Source: Methanococcus vannielii SB
GTDB taxonomy: Archaea > AGJL01 > Methanococci > Methanococcales > Methanococcaceae
Reading direction: 5' to 3'
Length of the DNA stretch: 64,000 bases
NCBI RefSeq assembly: GCF_000017165.1
Contig: NC_009634.1
Location: 758,249-822,248, forward strand
A program made the translations under genes and the position numbers. The notes under the pieces are model-generated. The model was not told the origin of the DNA. It made no database searches and was given only the letters and a program-made list of their open reading frames with translations. Shown here one piece after another: positions 48,526 to 58,699 of the stretch (the stretch's first letter is position 1; each line of letters starts with the position of its first letter).

Positions 48526-49710
48526 ATGTCATCATCTATTTGGTACCTTTACGAGTTCGTAAGAAAGAAGTGGTTTAAAAAGTTTACGAACGCTAAATCT
48601 GAAAAAGAAAGCTATATTGAACCCGAAAGATTTAGAAAAATTCCTGTAACTGTAGATTTTCCAGAAAAATGTATAAGTTGCAGTGCATGTGCCGAATCAT
48701 GTCCTTCGGATGCAATTTTAATGAAACATAATGAAGAATACAATAGAATAATGCCTGATTTTGACGACGGTTCATGCATAAATTGCGGAAATTGTGTTGA
48801 ATCGTGCCCCACAGAAGTTTTAGAAATGGGGACATTAAGAAAAGAAGCTTCAGGACTTAGTTGGAATGTTCCAAAAAAAATAAACCTTGTAATAGATAGC
48901 GAAGTTTGTGTAAGTTGCAGTTCTTGTGAAAAAGTCTGTCCTGTAGATGCAATATCCCATAATAGATTTTCAATTTATAAAATTGACGTTAATAGCTGTG
49001 TAAGTTGTAAAAAATGTATAGATAGTTGTCCAGTTGAAAATGCAATTCTAACTTATGATGAATTATCACTATCTAATAAAATAGATGTTTCGCAATACAA
49101 GAAGTTTGACCGTGAAAGACTCGGGATGAATTTTAAAGTTGAAATGGACATAATACCTGAAATTCCAAGAATTGTTCCAGAACTTTGTATAAATTGCAAA
49201 AACTGTGTTGACGTATGCCCCGGTTTAATTGATATCGAAAAATTAACCGTAGTAACCTGTGTAAAATGTGGACATTGTCTTTCAGTGTGCCCTACAAGCG
49301 CAATTAGAACTGGAACACTTGCAAAAATTACAAAAAATACTAAAAAATGCCATACTATAAACGATAAAAAATGTATCGGTTGTAGAATTTGTTATAAGTC
49401 TTGTAACGTGCCTAATGCATTGAATATTTCAAAAGAAACTAATTTGCCATATATTGACCCAATTTACTGTGTAAGATGTGGAATTTGCGAAAACGTATGT
49501 CCCGTAGATGCAGTTGATATTTTAAAAACAGATGTTTCACTTGATATAAGTCTGAAACAAAAAGTAAGAGATGAATTTGGGAATATTCTTCAAAAAGACC
49601 TTGAAGAATTCACCAAAAGCTACGTGCTTTTAAAAGAAGAAATAAAAGAAAAAGGTAAAAAAATTATATCTGATACCAAAATACCTGAAAAAAACAAGAA
49701 GGGTGATTAA
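48526..49710 (+). CDS. ehaP: Eha polyferredoxin with eight cubane motifs (EhaP position)
   Basis: 394-aa polyferredoxin. Eight CxxCxxCxxxC motifs are visible, from CISCSACAESC near residue 49 through CINCGNC, CVSCSSC, CVSCKKC, CINCKNC, CVKCGHC and CIGCRIC to CVRCGICENVC near 315, enough for eight [4Fe-4S] clusters. It likely relays electrons between EhaNO and ferredoxin or a partner enzyme. The seventh motif has CN in place of the usual CP. AGGAGGGT precedes the ATG. The letter is assigned by order and may differ from the Methanothermobacter naming. Confidence 0.85.
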   Translation: MSSSIWYLYEFVRKKWFKKFTNAKSEKESYIEPERFRKIPVTVDFPEKCISCSACAESCPSDAILMKHNEEYNRIMPDFDDGSCINCGNCVESCPTEVLEMGTLRKEASGLSWNVPKKINLVIDSEVCVSCSSCEKVCPVDAISHNRFSIYKIDVNSCVSCKKCIDSCPVENAILTYDELSLSNKIDVSQYKKFDRERLGMNFKVEMDIIPEIPRIVPELCINCKNCVDVCPGLIDIEKLTVVTCVKCGHCLSVCPTSAIRTGTLAKITKNTKKCHTINDKKCIGCRICYKSCNVPNALNISKETNLPYIDPIYCVRCGICENVCPVDAVDILKTDVSLDISLKQKVRDEFGNILQKDLEEFTKSYVLLKEEIKEKGKKIISDTKIPEKNKKGD

Positions 49711-49711
49711 C

Positions 49712-50188
49712 ATGGTATCAGAATTAGTTAAAAAATATTTTGATGATTTAAATGTTACCTTAGAACTTGAAAGTCAGTTGATAAGTAATAAGATTGAAAT
49801 AAATCCCGAAACTTGCATATTATGCAATAAATGCGTTGATATATGCCCCGTTTCTGCAATGAATTCTAAATATCCAGATATTCCAAACATAAATAAATCT
49901 TGCGTTTACTGTGGAAATTGCGTTGATATATGCCCCGTTTCTGCAATAAAAATTACAAAAGCACGAGTAAAAGTTGTTGATGGGGATATTGTAGTTGAAA
50001 AAAATCATTGTAAAAATAAAAAAATAATGTACGATAGAAAAAAATGTGTAATGTGTATCGTATGTATTAAAAACTGTCCTTTTGGTGCAATAGATGAATT
50101 AAAATCAGGAATTAAATTTAATGAAAAATGTGTGCTTTGTGGACATTGCGAAAGAATATGCCCTGCAGATGCCATTGAATTAGAATAA
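49712..50188 (+). CDS. ehaQ: Eha-associated polyferredoxin with four cubane motifs
   Basis: 158-aa ferredoxin. Four motifs: CILCNKCVDICP, CVYCGNCVDICP, CVMCIVCIKNCP and CVLCGHCERICP. A 29-bp stretch of the first two motifs is identical at DNA level, 87 bp apart, suggesting recent duplication or gene conversion. ATG 49712 follows GGGTGATTAAC. In the Eha complex it is part of the electron-exit module. Confidence 0.82.
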   Translation: MVSELVKKYFDDLNVTLELESQLISNKIEINPETCILCNKCVDICPVSAMNSKYPDIPNINKSCVYCGNCVDICPVSAIKITKARVKVVDGDIVVEKNHCKNKKIMYDRKKCVMCIVCIKNCPFGAIDELKSGIKFNEKCVLCGHCERICPADAIELE

Positions 50189-50210
50189 TTAGGATTTTCA
50201 AGGTGTTTGG

Positions 50211-50972
50211 ATGATAACTATAAAAAAACCAGTTGGAAAAATTATTTCAAGTATTTCGGAAAAATTAGGCGTAAGCTACGAAGAAGTTGAAAAAAAACTT
50301 ACTGGTTCGTTTTTACCTGTTGAAAAGAACCTTTACGTTGAATCCAGTAAATGTATTCGTTGTAACTTGTGTTTTGAAGAGTGCCCCGTTTCTGCAATAA
50401 AAAAACCTTCAGTTAAAAATCCTGCTGAAATAATTCCTGAAAATTGTGTAAAGTGTGAAATATGTGCAAAAACATGCCCAGTTAGTGCAATAAATGTTTT
50501 AGAAGGAAAAGCAGAATTAAAGGGCGATACAGTAATATACGAATTAAATGAAGTTCCAGTAGCCCATAGAAAAATACGCTTAAAAGAACATTGCATTGAT
50601 ATGGATTCGTGCATAAAATGTGGAATCTGTGAAAAATTCTGCCCAACAGATGCAATAACTGTTGAAAGAAAAAATAGTATAGATATCAATCTTAACTTAT
50701 GTATGGGATGTACTGCATGTGAAAAAGTCTGTCCAAAAAAATCAATAAAAGTTGAAAATGAAATGGGTAAAATAGATTTTAAAAAGTCCATTTTCTTAGA
50801 TAATGAAAAATGCGTAGATTGTATGGTTTGTAGCGAAATTTGTCCCGTTTCTGCAATAACTTATGAAAATGGGAAAATGGTAGTTTCAAAGCCAGTTTGC
50901 ATATTTTGTGGAAAATGCGAAAAAAATTGCCCTGTAACTGCAATATCTATTGAAAATGTGATGGAAAAATAA
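50211..50972 (+). CDS. ehaR: Eha-associated polyferredoxin with six cubane motifs
   Basis: 253-aa polyferredoxin with six CxxCxxCxxxCP motifs: CIRCNLC, CVKCEIC, CIKCGIC, CMGCTAC, CVDCMVC and CIFCGKC. A CPVSAI motif tail occurs after four of them. The first 40 residues (TIKKPVGKIISSISEKLGVSYEEVEKK) are free of cysteine. AAGGTG precedes the ATG. The letter is positional. Confidence 0.82.
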   Translation: MITIKKPVGKIISSISEKLGVSYEEVEKKLTGSFLPVEKNLYVESSKCIRCNLCFEECPVSAIKKPSVKNPAEIIPENCVKCEICAKTCPVSAINVLEGKAELKGDTVIYELNEVPVAHRKIRLKEHCIDMDSCIKCGICEKFCPTDAITVERKNSIDINLNLCMGCTACEKVCPKKSIKVENEMGKIDFKKSIFLDNEKCVDCMVCSEICPVSAITYENGKMVVSKPVCIFCGKCEKNCPVTAISIENVMEK

Positions 50973-53171: not shown

Positions 53172-53245
53172 TGGACCCAGCCGGATTCGAACCGGCGACC
53201 CTCGCCTTGTAAGGGCGATGTCATAGCCAACTAGACCATGAGTCC
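53172..53245 (-). tRNA. tRNA-Val (anticodon TAC)
   Basis: A full 74-base cloverleaf on the minus strand. The acceptor GGACTCA pairs with TGGGTCC (one G-T), the T arm is GCCGG-TTCGAAT-CCGGC, and the anticodon stem TCGCC/GGCGA encloses CTTACAA with anticodon TAC (reads GUA/GUG, valine). The discriminator is A; the terminal CCA is not encoded in the DNA. No intron. The gap 52992-53171 between prefoldin and this gene is low-complexity A/T-rich with nothing recognisable. Confidence 0.96.
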
Positions 53246-53274
53246 TATTTGCTTACATTAACTCCCTACTGAGA

Positions 53275-53306
53275 GCAAACTAAACATAGTATTCATGATA
53301 TATAAA
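53275..53306 (-). promoter_or_regulatory. tRNA-Val promoter (box A and start)
   Basis: On the minus strand TTTATATA (53299-53306) is a perfect stable-RNA box A, followed 20 bases later by TTTGC (53275-53279), a likely initiation box B. This gives a 5' leader of about 30 bases to be removed by RNase P. Confidence 0.75.
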
Positions 53307-53370
53307 CTTTTCGGTGCATACCGTATATGAAAAATGCATAAATAAAACATGCTATAATATAGGAGACATG

Positions 53371-54399
53371 ATGATTGAAAAGTTCCTTATAGACCGAAAA
53401 AATATTATAGAAGATTCTAAGCGTTCAAAAAATATTTTAGACGTTCAAAAAATTATTAATAATATAAAAGAAGAAAAAAATACTGAAAAAATAGTGATAG
53501 ACTTTACAGAATATAATCCGTTACATAATGGGCATAAGTACTGCTTGGATTTTGGTAAAAACCATGGAATATTTATAAGCGTAATACCTGGCCCCCTTGA
53601 AAGAAGTGGAAGAGGCGTACCATACTTAGTTGACAGGCATGTCAGGGCCGAAATGGCCGTTCGGGCTGGTGCAGATATTGTAGTTGAAGGGCCCCCAATG
53701 GGAATTATGGGTTCTGGACAATACATGCAGTGCTTAATAAAAATGTTTTATTCATTAAATGGGGACATAATTCCAAGGGGATATATAAAAGAAGGAATCA
53801 TGGAAAAAGTAATAAACTCAATAAATTCCAAAAATCATATCAAAATAAAACCGTACAATATTTCATGTATTGAATCGGGCGAAAAACTTGGAGAAAAGCT
53901 CGAAATTGATAATTACGTTATTGCATCGATGTCCTATACAATGTATAAATTAAAAGAAAAACTAAAAAATTGGGGCCCTGAATTTAAATTTATCGAAAGA
54001 ATTGAAGGAATAAGTGGGACAAAAATTAGGCAAGGCGTTATGAGCGGAAATTTTGACTCAATTAAACACATGCTTCCAGAAACTACGTTAGAAATTTTTA
54101 AATCTTTTGGAACTGATATATTGGATTTTGTTCTTGAAAGAAACGAACATAGAGTACTTGAAACAGTTAATAGCCACAATTTAGAAGACTATGTTTCAAA
54201 AAATATTGCGGAAAGGTTAAACGAAAAAGAACACTATAATTCCATTTCAGAAGTAAAATTACAAATACCAATAGGTTTTTCAAAAAACCATATCGAGAGA
54301 ACCATATCAAAACTTGAAGCGAGAATTGATAGGGATACCGTATCAAGATATATCGAAAACTACCCTTCAAAAATACGAATTTTAAAAATTAAAGAATAA
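53371..54399 (+). CDS. TmcAL-like nucleotidyltransferase (UPF0348-type)
   Basis: 342-aa protein with the HIGH-family nucleotidyltransferase motif [13 protein letters not shown] near residue 52 and, as in bacterial TmcAL (tRNA-Met cytidine acetate ligase), the [38 protein letters not shown] stretch near 73-110; ISGTKIRQG near 215 is the second ATP-binding signature. TmcAL activates acetate to modify the tRNA-Met wobble base; whether the archaeal protein does so is unknown. AGGAGA ends five bases before the ATG at 53371; the longer frame to 53314 is unlikely. It stands between tRNA-Val and protein-only RNase P. Confidence 0.8.
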
Positions 54400-54437
54400 T
54401 TAGTACAAATATGTATTAATTTCAGGGGGAGATTATA

Positions 54438-55109
54438 TTGCAAAAACAACGGTTTTGCTTAGATACAACTGCAATTACAGATAGCGGGGTTAGAAAATCC
54501 CTCGGTGCCACAAATATTTCCGAATCTGCAGAAAAAATCATGGACATAATATCTAAAGCAAGGGTTAAACTCGATATTTCTTGCCATATCCCGTATAACA
54601 CCGTTTATAATGAATTAATAGGTTTTTTAAATCGGGAAGGTTGTAAAAACGAAATTATAATCAAAGTAGATACATGGCTCGTTAAAAAAACGCCTAATAG
54701 GTATGAAATAAAAATTCCATCAGAAATCCTATATGAGTATATAAAAGATTTAAGGGAAAGAATAAATAAAGGAATGAGGATAAGTGAAAACGCTATGTAT
54801 GAAACAGCCCTTGAAGCATACATACTTAAAAAACCTGAAGAAAAGAATAAAGATGACGTTTTAAACGAAGTACTTTCTAAAACAGTCAATAATTTTAGGG
54901 ATAAATATAGAAATGCCCTTAGAGGGGGTACATTAGATAGTGCTCCTGATTTAGATGTATTATTACTTGCAAAAGAATTAGATGCAGCAGTAGTTGCAAA
55001 TGATGAAGGCATAGAAAAATGGGCCCAAAGGCTTGGACTCAGGTTTGTTAATGCAAAAGATTTCCCATTTATTCTTCAAGAATACCTTGATATGTGGGGT
55101 AAAAAGTAA
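54438..55109 (+). CDS. RNA-free ribonuclease P (HARP, PIN domain)
   Basis: 223-aa PIN-domain nuclease of the HARP family (homologue of Aquifex RNase P), formerly UPF0278 or RNA ligase partner. Acidic metal ligands are visible: FCLDTTAITDSG at residues 6-17, ISCHIPYNTVYNEL near 47, then DSAPDLDVLLLAKELDAAVVANDEGIEKWAQRLG near 166-200. The Aquifex homologue alone matures tRNA 5' ends; archaeal homologues show similar activity, while the main activity in archaea is the RNA-based enzyme. Start TTG after GGGGGA. It is flanked by a TmcAL-like gene and a DUF356 gene. Confidence 0.88.
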   Translation: MQKQRFCLDTTAITDSGVRKSLGATNISESAEKIMDIISKARVKLDISCHIPYNTVYNELIGFLNREGCKNEIIIKVDTWLVKKTPNRYEIKIPSEILYEYIKDLRERINKGMRISENAMYETALEAYILKKPEEKNKDDVLNEVLSKTVNNFRDKYRNALRGGTLDSAPDLDVLLLAKELDAAVVANDEGIEKWAQRLGLRFVNAKDFPFILQEYLDMWGKK

Positions 55110-55150
55110 TTTATTACTTTAAAATTTTAAAATTAAAACACGGTGAAAAC

Positions 55151-55537
55151 ATGGTACTCTTGATAATTCGGGGCGATAGCTATGAAAAAATTAAAAATGC
55201 AATAGCTGACGTCCACCGACATGCAAAATTAACAATTCTCGGAAAACCAAGGATAATGGTTCCAGAAGCTGCGGACGAAATTTTAGAACATATCGTTGGA
55301 GATATTAAAAAACCATGTAAGAAAGCCTGCCTAGTCAGAATTGAAGAAAATGCTCCAAGGGCAATAGACAGAATCAGGAAAATTCACCCGCCTGCACACA
55401 TCGTAATTGTCAGTGAACGGCATGAACCGTACTTTTATTTATTAGAAGACCTTCCAAAAATGCCACTTTTAAAGGGATACTATAAAAGTAAAAACCTTGA
55501 CAATTCAGAAGAAGATGCAGAAGACATTAAGAGTTAA
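55151..55537 (+). CDS. DUF356 family protein
   Basis: 128-aa soluble protein found in methanogens (DUF356), beginning MVLLIIRGDSYEKIKNAIADVHRHAKL, with LGKPRIMVPEAADEILEHIVGDIKKPCKKACLVRI in the middle and an acidic tail. No known function. It lies between HARP and ileS, 41 and 60 bases from its neighbours, in the same direction. CGGTGA precedes the ATG. A link to tRNA metabolism is only suggested by position. Confidence 0.78.
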   Translation: MVLLIIRGDSYEKIKNAIADVHRHAKLTILGKPRIMVPEAADEILEHIVGDIKKPCKKACLVRIEENAPRAIDRIRKIHPPAHIVIVSERHEPYFYLLEDLPKMPLLKGYYKSKNLDNSEEDAEDIKS

Positions 55538-55597
55538 AAATTAAAAATTTATAAAATAAACACAAACCTTAGAAAATCATCATATCGGGGTGAATAT

Positions 55598-58500
55598 ATG
55601 AAACAAGTCAAAGGAGTTAATTTTAGAGAACTCGATAAAAATATAAAGAATTATTGGAAAGAAAATAACACCTATGAAAAAGTAAAATCGTTAAATGAAT
55701 ATGGGCCAGATTATTATTTTGTTGATGGCCCACCTTATTGTTCAGGTGCAATCCACCTTGGAACTGCATGGAATAAAATCATTAAAGATACTGTTTTAAG
55801 ATTTAAACGAATTCAAGGATATAATGTTCTCGATAAAGCTGGTTGGGATATGCACGGCCTTCCTATCGAAGTTAAAGTTGAAAATGAATTTAACATAGGT
55901 TCTAAAAAAGATATTGAAACTAAAATAGGTACACAAGTTTTTATTGATAAATGTAAAGAATTTGCACTAAATCACCTTTCAAACATGGAAAAACAGTTCA
56001 AAAATTTAGGGATATGGTTAGATTTTGAAAACGCATACATGCCAATTAAAAACGATTACATAGAAATGGGTTGGTGGACGCTTAAAAAAGCACATGAAAA
56101 GGATTTACTTACAAAAGATTTAAGGTCAGGATACTGGTGTCCACGATGTGAAACCTCACTTGCTGAACATGAAGTTAGGGGGGAATATAAAGAAGTACTT
56201 GACCCTTCAGTTTACGTCAAATTTAAATTAAAAGACAGCAACGAATTTATAACAATCTGGACAACGACGCCTTGGACGCTTCCTTCAAACATGCTCGTTT
56301 GTATTAATCCGGAATTTGATTACGCTTATGTTAATGTTGAATTTAACGGTAAAAATGAAACTTGGATTATTGCAGAAAAATTGGTTCCAGAAGTAATGAA
56401 AAAGGGCGAAAAGCAAAATCCGGATTTAAAGTTCCATATTTCTAAAACCGTTAAAGGTGAATCACTAATAGGTTTAAAGTACATTCACCCATTTTTAGAA
56501 GAAAATGAAAAACAGGGCGAATTTAGTTTATTAAAAAATGCTCATTCAATCGTTCCCGGAAACCACGTAACTCTTGAAGGCGGAACTGGACTCGTCCATA
56601 CTGCACCAGGATTTGGTGAAGACGATTTTAATGTTGGGAAAGAATATGGTATCCTTGCATATGCCCCTATTGACGATAACGGGAGATATATTGAAAGTAT
56701 TTGGAAAGGTTTATTTGTAAAGGAAATGGATAAACCAGTTATTGAAAGATTAATTGAGAAAAATCTTTTAATAAATTCTGGAAAAGTAAAACACACGTAT
56801 CCGCACTGCTGGAGATGTAAAACTCCCCTTTTATTTAGGGCAACTGAACAATGGTTCCTTTCAATTTCAAAAATAAAAGAAGGAATAATTGAACAAGGAA
56901 AAACAGTTGATTGGGTTCCCGACTGGGTTAAAACAAGATATGTAAATGGAGTAAGTTTTGTTGGAGACTGGAACATTTCAAGACAGAGATACTGGGGAAT
57001 TCCAATTCCAATCTGGACTTGTGACTGTTGCAAAAAGTATGAAGTAATTGGAGCTATTTCCGAATTAATAGATAAAGCCAATGAAAAGGACGTTGATTTA
57101 AGTGACCTTCATAAACCGACAGTTGATAAAATTACGCTAAAATGTTCATGTGGAGGCATAATGACTAGAACTCCTGACGTTTTGGACGTTTGGTATGATA
57201 GTGGTCTAGCACCTTATGCCTCAATTGGCTCAAAAGAACTTAAAAAGGCAGAATTTATTACTGAAGGGAACGATCAAGTAACAAAATGGTTCTATTCGCA
57301 GCATGCACTAAGTGCTGTTGTATTTAATGATACACCATACAAAAAGTGTATGATGCACGGTTTTACGCTTGATGAAACTGGAGAGAAAATGAGTAAATCA
57401 TTAGGAAACATTGTAAGTCCTGATGAAGTTACAGAAAAATATGGTGCAGATGTTTTAAGGTTCTACCTATTAAGTGCAAATAAAGCTTGGGAAGACCTTA
57501 GGTTTTCATATTCTGAAATGGATGAAGTAAGAAGCGCTTTAAACACGCTTTGGAATTCCTATGCATTTTCAACAAACTACATGGTACTAGATGAATTTAT
57601 TCCAAATAACGAATATTTCAAGCATTTAAAAGATGAAGACGCTTGGATTTTAAGTAGGGTAAATACGGTTTCAAAAGATGCAATTGAAGCTTTAGAAAAA
57701 CCCCATTTACACACATACACATGGATGATAAGGGATTTTATATTAAATGACCTTTCAAGATGGTATATTAAATTAATAAGGGATCGAACATGGATGGAAA
57801 AAAACGATGTTCAAAAGCTTTCTGCATACCAGACGCTTTACTACGTGATTATGAAGTTAATTATGATTATGTCTCCAGTAACACCCCATATTTCAGAAGA
57901 GATATACCAAAATTTAAAAACTGAAAATATGCCTGAAAGCGTTTTCATGAATAAATTAACCGTTGAAACAGAATTTATAAATTCTAAGCTTGAAGAAGAT
58001 ATTGAAATAGTAAGAGAAGTAGTTGATTCCATTTTAAAAGGAAGAGATAAGGTAAAATACACTTTAAGGTATCCTATTACAAAAATAACTCTTCCAGAAA
58101 ATATCAAAGAAACTGTTGAAAAATACGAATATTTGATAAAAGAACAGGGTAACGTAAAAAATATTGAATTAAAAGAATTTGAAGGAAATGTTACAGTAAA
58201 ACCAAATTTTAAGGAACTTGGAAAAATATTTAGAAGCAACGTTCCAAAAGTGGTTAGTGCAATAAATTCAGTAAATCCAAAAGAATTAAAAGAAAATTTA
58301 AAATCTGGAGAAATTGATATTTTAGGATTTACTATAAAGCCCGAATATGTTGAATTTAAAGTAGATATTCCTGAAAATATTGTTGGAATCGAATTTTCAA
58401 AAGGAAACGTTTACATGAATATAGATATGAACTGTGAAGTAATCATGGATGGGCTTAAAAGAGAAGTTATTCGAAGAATCCAGTCAATGAGAAAGGACAT

Positions 58501-58699
58501 GGATTTAGATATTAACGATAGAATTAACATAAGATTAGAAGGAATAGAATTTAGTGAAGAATCAATTTTCCACATTGCAAATGAGGTTAGAGGAAACTTT
58601 GTTAAAAATTTAAAATCAGAATACTCCCAAAATTGGAATATAAAAACTCCTAATGAAGAAAATTACGATATTTCGATTGAAATTGAAAAAATAAAATAA
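55598..58699 (+). CDS. ileS: Isoleucyl-tRNA synthetase
   Basis: Class I aminoacyl-tRNA synthetase, 1033 aa. The catalytic HIGH variant lies in PPYCSGAIHLGTAWNK near residue 46 and KMSKS in GEKMSKSLGN near 592. The editing (CP1) domain is between about 190 and 400, with WTTTPWTLPSN near 210 and GTGLVHTAPGFGEDD near 327. Zinc-binding CPRCETSLAEHE and HCWRCKTPLLF occur near 181 and 401. The C-terminal 200 residues match archaeal/eukaryotic IleRS. GGGGTGA precedes the ATG. The stop lies inside an ATAAA microsatellite. Confidence 0.97.
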   Translation: MKQVKGVNFRELDKNIKNYWKENNTYEKVKSLNEYGPDYYFVDGPPYCSGAIHLGTAWNKIIKDTVLRFKRIQGYNVLDKAGWDMHGLPIEVKVENEFNIGSKKDIETKIGTQVFIDKCKEFALNHLSNMEKQFKNLGIWLDFENAYMPIKNDYIEMGWWTLKKAHEKDLLTKDLRSGYWCPRCETSLAEHEVRGEYKEVLDPSVYVKFKLKDSNEFITIWTTTPWTLPSNMLVCINPEFDYAYVNVEFNGKNETWIIAEKLVPEVMKKGEKQNPDLKFHISKTVKGESLIGLKYIHPFLEENEKQGEFSLLKNAHSIVPGNHVTLEGGTGLVHTAPGFGEDDFNVGKEYGILAYAPIDDNGRYIESIWKGLFVKEMDKPVIERLIEKNLLINSGKVKHTYPHCWRCKTPLLFRATEQWFLSISKIKEGIIEQGKTVDWVPDWVKTRYVNGVSFVGDWNISRQRYWGIPIPIWTCDCCKKYEVIGAISELIDKANEKDVDLSDLHKPTVDKITLKCSCGGIMTRTPDVLDVWYDSGLAPYASIGSKELKKAEFITEGNDQVTKWFYSQHALSAVVFNDTPYKKCMMHGFTLDETGEKMSKSLGNIVSPDEVTEKYGADVLRFYLLSANKAWEDLRFSYSEMDEVRSALNTLWNSYAFSTNYMVLDEFIPNNEYFKHLKDEDAWILSRVNTVSKDAIEALEKPHLHTYTWMIRDFILNDLSRWYIKLIRDRTWMEKNDVQKLSAYQTLYYVIMKLIMIMSPVTPHISEEIYQNLKTENMPESVFMNKLTVETEFINSKLEEDIEIVREVVDSILKGRDKVKYTLRYPITKITLPENIKETVEKYEYLIKEQGNVKNIELKEFEGNVTVKPNFKELGKIFRSNVPKVVSAINSVNPKELKENLKSGEIDILGFTIKPEYVEFKVDIPENIVGIEFSKGNVYMNIDMNCEVIMDGLKREVIRRIQSMRKDMDLDINDRINIRLEGIEFSEESIFHIANEVRGNFVKNLKSEYSQNWNIKTPNEENYDISIEIEKIK

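Follow-up and report, generated by a model that had tools for sequence, protein, structure and literature searches.

The window analyzed here is a stretch of 64,000 nucleotides of Methanococcus vannielii SB (contig NC_009634.1, positions 758,249 to 822,248, forward strand), drawn from a Methanococcus-like genome of 1,720,048 bp that is G000 among the 36 genomes of the class Methanococci. It contains a valine tRNA gene and, divergent from it, four consecutive protein genes that encode a HIGH nucleotidyltransferase resembling TmcAL, a HARP-type nuclease, a DUF356 protein and isoleucyl-tRNA synthetase (IleS). These features had been named in a preliminary description, and profile searches, ARAGORN and Rfam confirm that each is present where it had been placed:

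53171/53172-53245, minus strand: tRNA-Val, anticodon UAC (ARAGORN; Rfam RF00005, 66.9 bits; cloverleaf fold)
53246-53367, no strand: intergenic region between the two divergent genes, containing TATATAAA at about 53299-53306, a putative promoter
53368-54399, plus strand: TmcAL-like HIGH nucleotidyltransferase, UPF0348, orthologue of MJ0951 (PF16581 and N-terminal PF05636)
54438-55109, plus strand: HARP-type PIN_5 nuclease, annotated as "RNA ligase partner" (PF08745, TIGR03875, PDB HARPs)
55151-55537, plus strand: DUF356, an alpha/beta domain of about 115 residues with a conserved HPPAH motif (PF04009)
55598-58699, plus strand: isoleucyl-tRNA synthetase IleS (TIGR00392)

The four protein genes are separated by gaps of 38, 41 and 60 bp and presumably form one transcript. 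Because the tRNA gene is on the minus strand and divergent from all four, it lies outside that transcript. The preliminary description had counted a tRNA with a leader as part of the block; the tRNA itself stands, but it is on the opposite strand, and the leader of about 30 nucleotides is one that we infer from the position of a TATA element. The tRNA folds as a cloverleaf, and the putative leader folds apart from it as a hairpin of its own (z -3.1). Translation of the TmcAL-like gene most likely starts at ATG 53368 rather than at GTG 53314; AGGAG lies upstream of this ATG and homologues agree with it. The HARP gene starts with TTG at 54438, as do the genes of most homologues in the family, and IleS is well above the TIGR00392 equivalog cut-off (994.3 bits versus 621.4, E 5e-299). 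Scans for sigma-70 promoters and for terminators gave scores at the level of shuffled sequence and were set aside, the sigma-70 model being inapplicable to archaeal promoters.

Conservation of this arrangement was assessed by comparing the positions of PF16581, PF08745, PF04009 and TIGR00392 in the 36 Methanococci genomes; phylum-wide searches returned the same 36. All five Methanococcales genera sampled, which represent two families, have the string or parts of it, and its genes are co-directional wherever they are adjacent. The full order of TmcAL-like gene, HARP, DUF356 and IleS on one strand is found in the window's own genus and also in genus g3 and Methanocaldococcus-type genomes (g5). 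Taken junction by junction, the TmcAL-like and HARP genes are adjacent (at most 700 bp) in 21 genomes, HARP and DUF356 (at most 300 bp) in 19 and DUF356 and IleS (at most 900 bp) in 25, on the same strand throughout. Two genomes (G034, G035) keep HARP, DUF356 and IleS together with the TmcAL-like gene elsewhere, while three (G021, G028, G032) keep the TmcAL-like gene and HARP together with DUF356 and IleS elsewhere. As this gene order is spread over genera with lineage-specific breaks, the ancestor of Methanococcales probably already had the string, which then eroded by lineage. The preliminary description had asked for a comparison over all Methanococcales, with linkage beyond close relatives as support, and such linkage is found at the level of the order. 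The arrangement is beyond chance, since the genes recur in the same sequence and orientation across Methanococcales. DUF356 and IleS are farther apart in Methanocaldococcus-type loci. In one such locus (L070:8369-9088) an extra coiled-coil-like open reading frame of about 190 residues occupies the space between them, and its relatives have similar gaps.

The most durable link of the locus is the pairing of tRNA-Val(UAC) with the TmcAL-like gene. The two are divergent neighbours in 28 of the 29 Methanococci in which the locus could be resolved, a count to be read with caution (G003 is the sole exception, and the G032 locus is cut by a contig end). The preliminary description had not singled this association out, and it is stronger than could be known there. 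Additionally, tRNA-Val(UAC) stays with the TmcAL-like gene in five genomes in which the latter lies apart from the string (G034, G035, G029, G009 and G013). The element TATATAAA, which reads ACCGAAAAGTTTATATAT in the direction of the tRNA, is located between the two genes in all 28 Methanococci examined, 23-86 bp from the tRNA 5' end. The distance between tRNA-Val and the TmcAL-like gene is merely about 60 bp in many Methanocaldococcus, so a single TATA element probably drives transcription in both directions. In the tRNA direction the sequence ACCGAAA followed by TTTATATA resembles the stable-RNA promoter consensus of Methanococcus.

The TmcAL-like protein matches PF16581 (E 3.9e-72), with PF05636 covering profile positions 8-78 only, and matches the MJ0951 structure in the PDB (3gmi) with an E of 1.2e-133; our literature search found no paper on MJ0951. 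Its AlphaFold model has a mean predicted local distance difference test score (pLDDT) of 90.7 and, in Foldseek, matches TmcAL (5y0t) over its full length (E 5.8e-13, template modelling score (TM) 0.65, 354 columns), followed at lower scores mostly by nucleotidyltransferase-type enzymes. Among homologues the EYNPLHxGH motif is invariant and a GTKIR-type motif is conserved. The protein nevertheless fails the NCBIfam TmcAL model NF010191 (66.9 bits versus a cut-off of 360), and its sequence aligns to TmcAL only around the HIGH motif and in a weak C-terminal stretch. This full-length match in fold, combined with failure of NF010191, places the protein in the TmcAL superfamily but outside TmcAL proper. 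It likely forms an acyl-adenylate, and its role as a probable tRNA acyl-ligase is the main lead of the locus. Another HIGH nucleotidyltransferase, divergent, about 430 residues long and with a partial PF16581 match, is encoded in Methanobacteriales and in a presumed Methanopyrus genome (L138-L141).

The HARP protein matches PF08745 over profile positions 1-204 of 205 (E 1.9e-86), TIGR03875 (E 2.6e-87) and solved HARPs in the PDB (E down to 2e-31). Four aspartates, D9, D167, D171 and D189, are invariant in 14 homologues; read from alignments to solved HARPs they correspond to the known active site, so that all four catalytic aspartates are kept (D7, D138, D142 and D161 in Aq880; PMC8266387). 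Three genomes of the window's genus (G018, G019 and G020; L002, L005 and L006) are without HARP and have the TmcAL-like gene, DUF356 and IleS intact, with 331-439 bp between the TmcAL-like and DUF356 domain matches. A tblastn search of this gap for a HARP relic gave weak and short matches (best E 0.22), none of them clear. The RNA ligase Rnl3 (TIGR01209) is also missing in these three genomes and is present in all others that are at least 90% complete. This co-absence has a Fisher p of 0.0014 over 27 genomes at least 90% complete, a value that likely reflects a single event: a tandem duplication of tRNA-Val(UAC) is common to the three, which are therefore probably one lineage. Archaeal RNase P RNA was detected in 30 of the 36 Methanococci genomes, including the HARP-less three and the window's own (RF00373 at G000:C1:1218465-1218704, E 4.5e-39). 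HARP is consequently not the sole RNase P of the cell, as RF00373 is found in its own genome and HARP is missing in three relatives. In Haloferax volcanii and Methanosarcina mazei, published knockouts of HARP were without phenotype (PMC12153264, PMC10941002). Given the RNase P RNA, the HARP-less relatives and these knockouts, HARP is most likely accessory.

DUF356 is a full-length match to PF04009 (136.8 bits versus a cut-off of 29.9, E 4.1e-40), a family listed with the function "?" in one paper. Its model is a compact alpha/beta fold (pLDDT 87.2 overall, about 95 over residues 1-110), and ten residues (R7, K13, D20, P33, I72, I78, H79, P80, P81 and H83) are invariant over 42 aligned sequences. 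Foldseek returned nothing at E <= 0.001 for this model; the best matches were mostly uS10/NusE (TM 0.28-0.39 by query), a weak hint only. A PDB sequence match to a Legionella effector (E 0.005 over 38 residues) was dismissed as chance.

The families part company outside the order. In a search of 297 archaea, DUF356 was found in 73, PF16581 in 52 and HARP (E <= 1e-15) in 98, and a DUF356 profile scan of genome contigs gave 11 loci, all apparently from Methanococci. In the 39 archaea outside Methanococci that have DUF356 (L084-L122), we inspected its flanks over about 8 kb in either direction. None of these 39 has HARP, the TmcAL-like gene or IleS within this distance. In 36 of them a homologue of aMBF1, mostly convergent, is no more than about 3 kb away from DUF356 (identity confirmed by TIGR00270 in four representatives), and 20 have the proteasome ATPase PAN nearby. 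Since aMBF1 recurs beside DUF356 in these archaea, our working guess is that DUF356 has a role related to translation. The preliminary description had tied HARP to tRNA, which holds in part: in six of 18 loci sampled outside the order, from several lineages (L142, L144, L147, L148, L156 and L157), HisS directly follows HARP, either overlapping it or at most about 15 bp away, but the linkage with DUF356 vanishes outside Methanococcales. Among 14 TmcAL-like loci of Methanobacteriales (including L131 and L132), 12 have an overlap of 3-9 bp between the TmcAL-like gene and the FKBP26-type peptidyl-prolyl isomerase gene downstream of it; a dihydroorotase-like gene flanks the other side. In one genome (G209, locus L124) two tRNA-Val genes lie upstream of the TmcAL-like gene at a distance of about 0.8 kb, with one opposite-strand gene between, a closeness that may be chance; in the remaining Methanobacteriales loci scanned, tRNA-Val is not near the TmcAL-like gene.

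HARP pairs with Rnl3, DUF356 pairs with aMBF1 outside the order and the TmcAL-like gene pairs with tRNA-Val(UAC). We favour, with moderate confidence, the explanation that the block is a conserved translation-themed neighbourhood of Methanococcales in which known families act independently on tRNA, rather than one new pathway. The four protein genes would be co-transcribed. The TmcAL-like enzyme would bind ATP at its HIGH site, form an acyl-adenylate in the way that TmcAL activates acetate, and then transfer the acyl group to a tRNA nucleobase. HARP would be an accessory endonuclease that acts with the RNA ligase Rnl3 on some RNAs only, leaving bulk 5' processing of tRNA to the RNA-based RNase P. 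DUF356 would be a small protein with an accessory function related to translation, and IleS would charge tRNA-Ile as usual. Several observations weigh against this explanation. The supposed tRNA theme comes from family annotation, and an order can be kept inside one archaeal order by descent without shared function. TATA-like stretches precede both DUF356 and IleS, which bears on co-transcription. The acyl-ligase step is predicted by homology only, and no alignment to TmcAL was obtained for the middle region of the TmcAL-like protein (profile positions about 115-219), which bears on the ATP- and acetate-binding residues outside the HIGH motif. Finally, the adjacency of HARP and HisS could mean a tie to tRNA charging that is more direct than assumed.

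The alternative of passive synteny holds that the order is inherited and carries no functional coupling past shared transcription. Junctions that break freely in several lineages and DUF356 links that are absent elsewhere speak for it, but order and strand survive across two families despite many broken junctions and the tRNA-Val/TmcAL-like pairing is missing just once in 29, so we regard it as rather doubtful.

A stronger claim, although compatible with the conserved neighbourhood of independently acting families, is that the TmcAL-like protein is a new tRNA base acetylase whose targets include valine tRNA, for example at a putative N6-acetyl-A7, with the divergent tRNA-Val gene reflecting co-regulation of enzyme and substrate. 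It is chemically conceivable that a TmcAL-type enzyme acylates the exocyclic amine of adenine, and the tRNA-Val neighbour makes adenine acylation of tRNA-Val no more than a testable guess. In its favour are the persistence of tRNA-Val(UAC) beside the gene in the five genomes with a broken string, the two nearby tRNA-Val genes of G209, the absence of TmcA (over cut-off in 0 of 36 Methanococci genomes) and an A7 in the window's own tRNA-Val. Moreover, a study of Methanococcus maripaludis tRNA (PMC7668247) describes in tRNA-Val(GAC) an A*7, unassigned and with a mass of 309.1, for which its authors tentatively favour N6-acetyladenosine (ac6A), a nucleoside first found in Methanopyrus kandleri as cited in PMC3695527 and PMC7668247. 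However, it is the GAC isoacceptor that carries this modification, whose identity is itself tentative (m6,2Am has the same mass). Furthermore, G066, the presumed M. kandleri genome and thus the source of ac6A, has only the divergent paralogue, which weakens an assignment of ac6A to PF16581; tRNA-Val is away from the gene in the rest of the scanned Methanobacteriales loci; and gene neighbours need not be enzyme and substrate. That these TmcA-less methanogens have a new archaeal acyl-adenylate enzyme that acylates a tRNA-Val nucleobase and shares a divergent promoter with its substrate therefore appears unlikely to us, as does the acetylase proposal in general.

There is similarly little likelihood that the protein is a functional TmcAL that forms N4-acetylcytidine at position 34 (ac4C34) on elongator tRNA-Met and thereby protects AUA/AUG decoding (the role of TmcAL in AUA decoding is summarized in PMC12514573), even though this would give a direct logic to the downstream IleS. 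The shared fold, the EYNPLHxGH and GTKIR-type motifs and the lack of TmcA agree with it, but the low NF010191 score and the restricted alignment do not. Nor do the M. maripaludis data lend support: in the text read of PMC7668247 no ac4C is reported for this species, the initiator tRNA-Met carries Cm34 and coverage of elongator tRNA-Met is uncertain in the text, while the only wobble ac4C described is the ac4Cm34 of Pyrococcus furiosus tRNA-Gln.

Lastly, the single undescribed route of tRNA maturation or modification that the preliminary description had suggested, in which HARP trims the pre-tRNA, the TmcAL-like protein modifies it with DUF356 and IleS charges it, draws on the linkage over all five genera, on the tRNA-Val neighbour and on HARP beside HisS elsewhere, but it is improbable because HARP is dispensable to the string and is lost with Rnl3 rather than with the TmcAL-like gene or DUF356, its knockouts in two archaea lack a phenotype, canonical RNase P RNA is present, the families have unlike spreads among the 297 archaea, DUF356 is unlinked to the others outside the order with aMBF1 and PAN as neighbours there, and the tRNA is for valine while the synthetase is for isoleucine.

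Archaeal HARP, the TmcAL-like UPF0348 and DUF356 are three families without a settled role, and the comparison sets them apart from one another: what looked like a loosely defined "tRNA block" resolves into three pairs that can be tested in a genus amenable to genetics. Upstream of the block, two polyferredoxin-like open reading frames lie side by side (window positions 49703-50972).

In comparison with known systems, the TmcAL-like protein is an orthologue of UPF0348 MJ0951 (60% identity to 3gmi, TM 0.94) with no notable difference. It shares with TmcAL the HIGH nucleotidyltransferase fold (TM 0.65), the EYNPxHxGH motif and a two-domain architecture, but differs in its 18% identity in the structural match, its own C-terminal family PF16581, an N-terminal extension of about 40 residues and its failure of NF010191. 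HARP likewise has the full-length PIN_5 domain, the four active-site aspartates and the Rnl3 co-occurrence of other HARPs or RNA-free RNases P, but at 223 residues it is longer than the solved HARPs, canonical RNase P RNA is also present in the genome and its gene is in the string with DUF356 and IleS, not beside Rnl3. DUF356 has IleS as its neighbour here, whereas elsewhere in archaea its neighbours are aMBF1 and PAN. The co-occurrence of HARP and Rnl3 has been published (Seshadri & Gopalan 2025, PMC12153264), and our observation that both are jointly present or absent in nearly all near-complete genomes agrees with that report. Beyond it, we find their co-loss inside Methanococcus with the flanking genes left in place.

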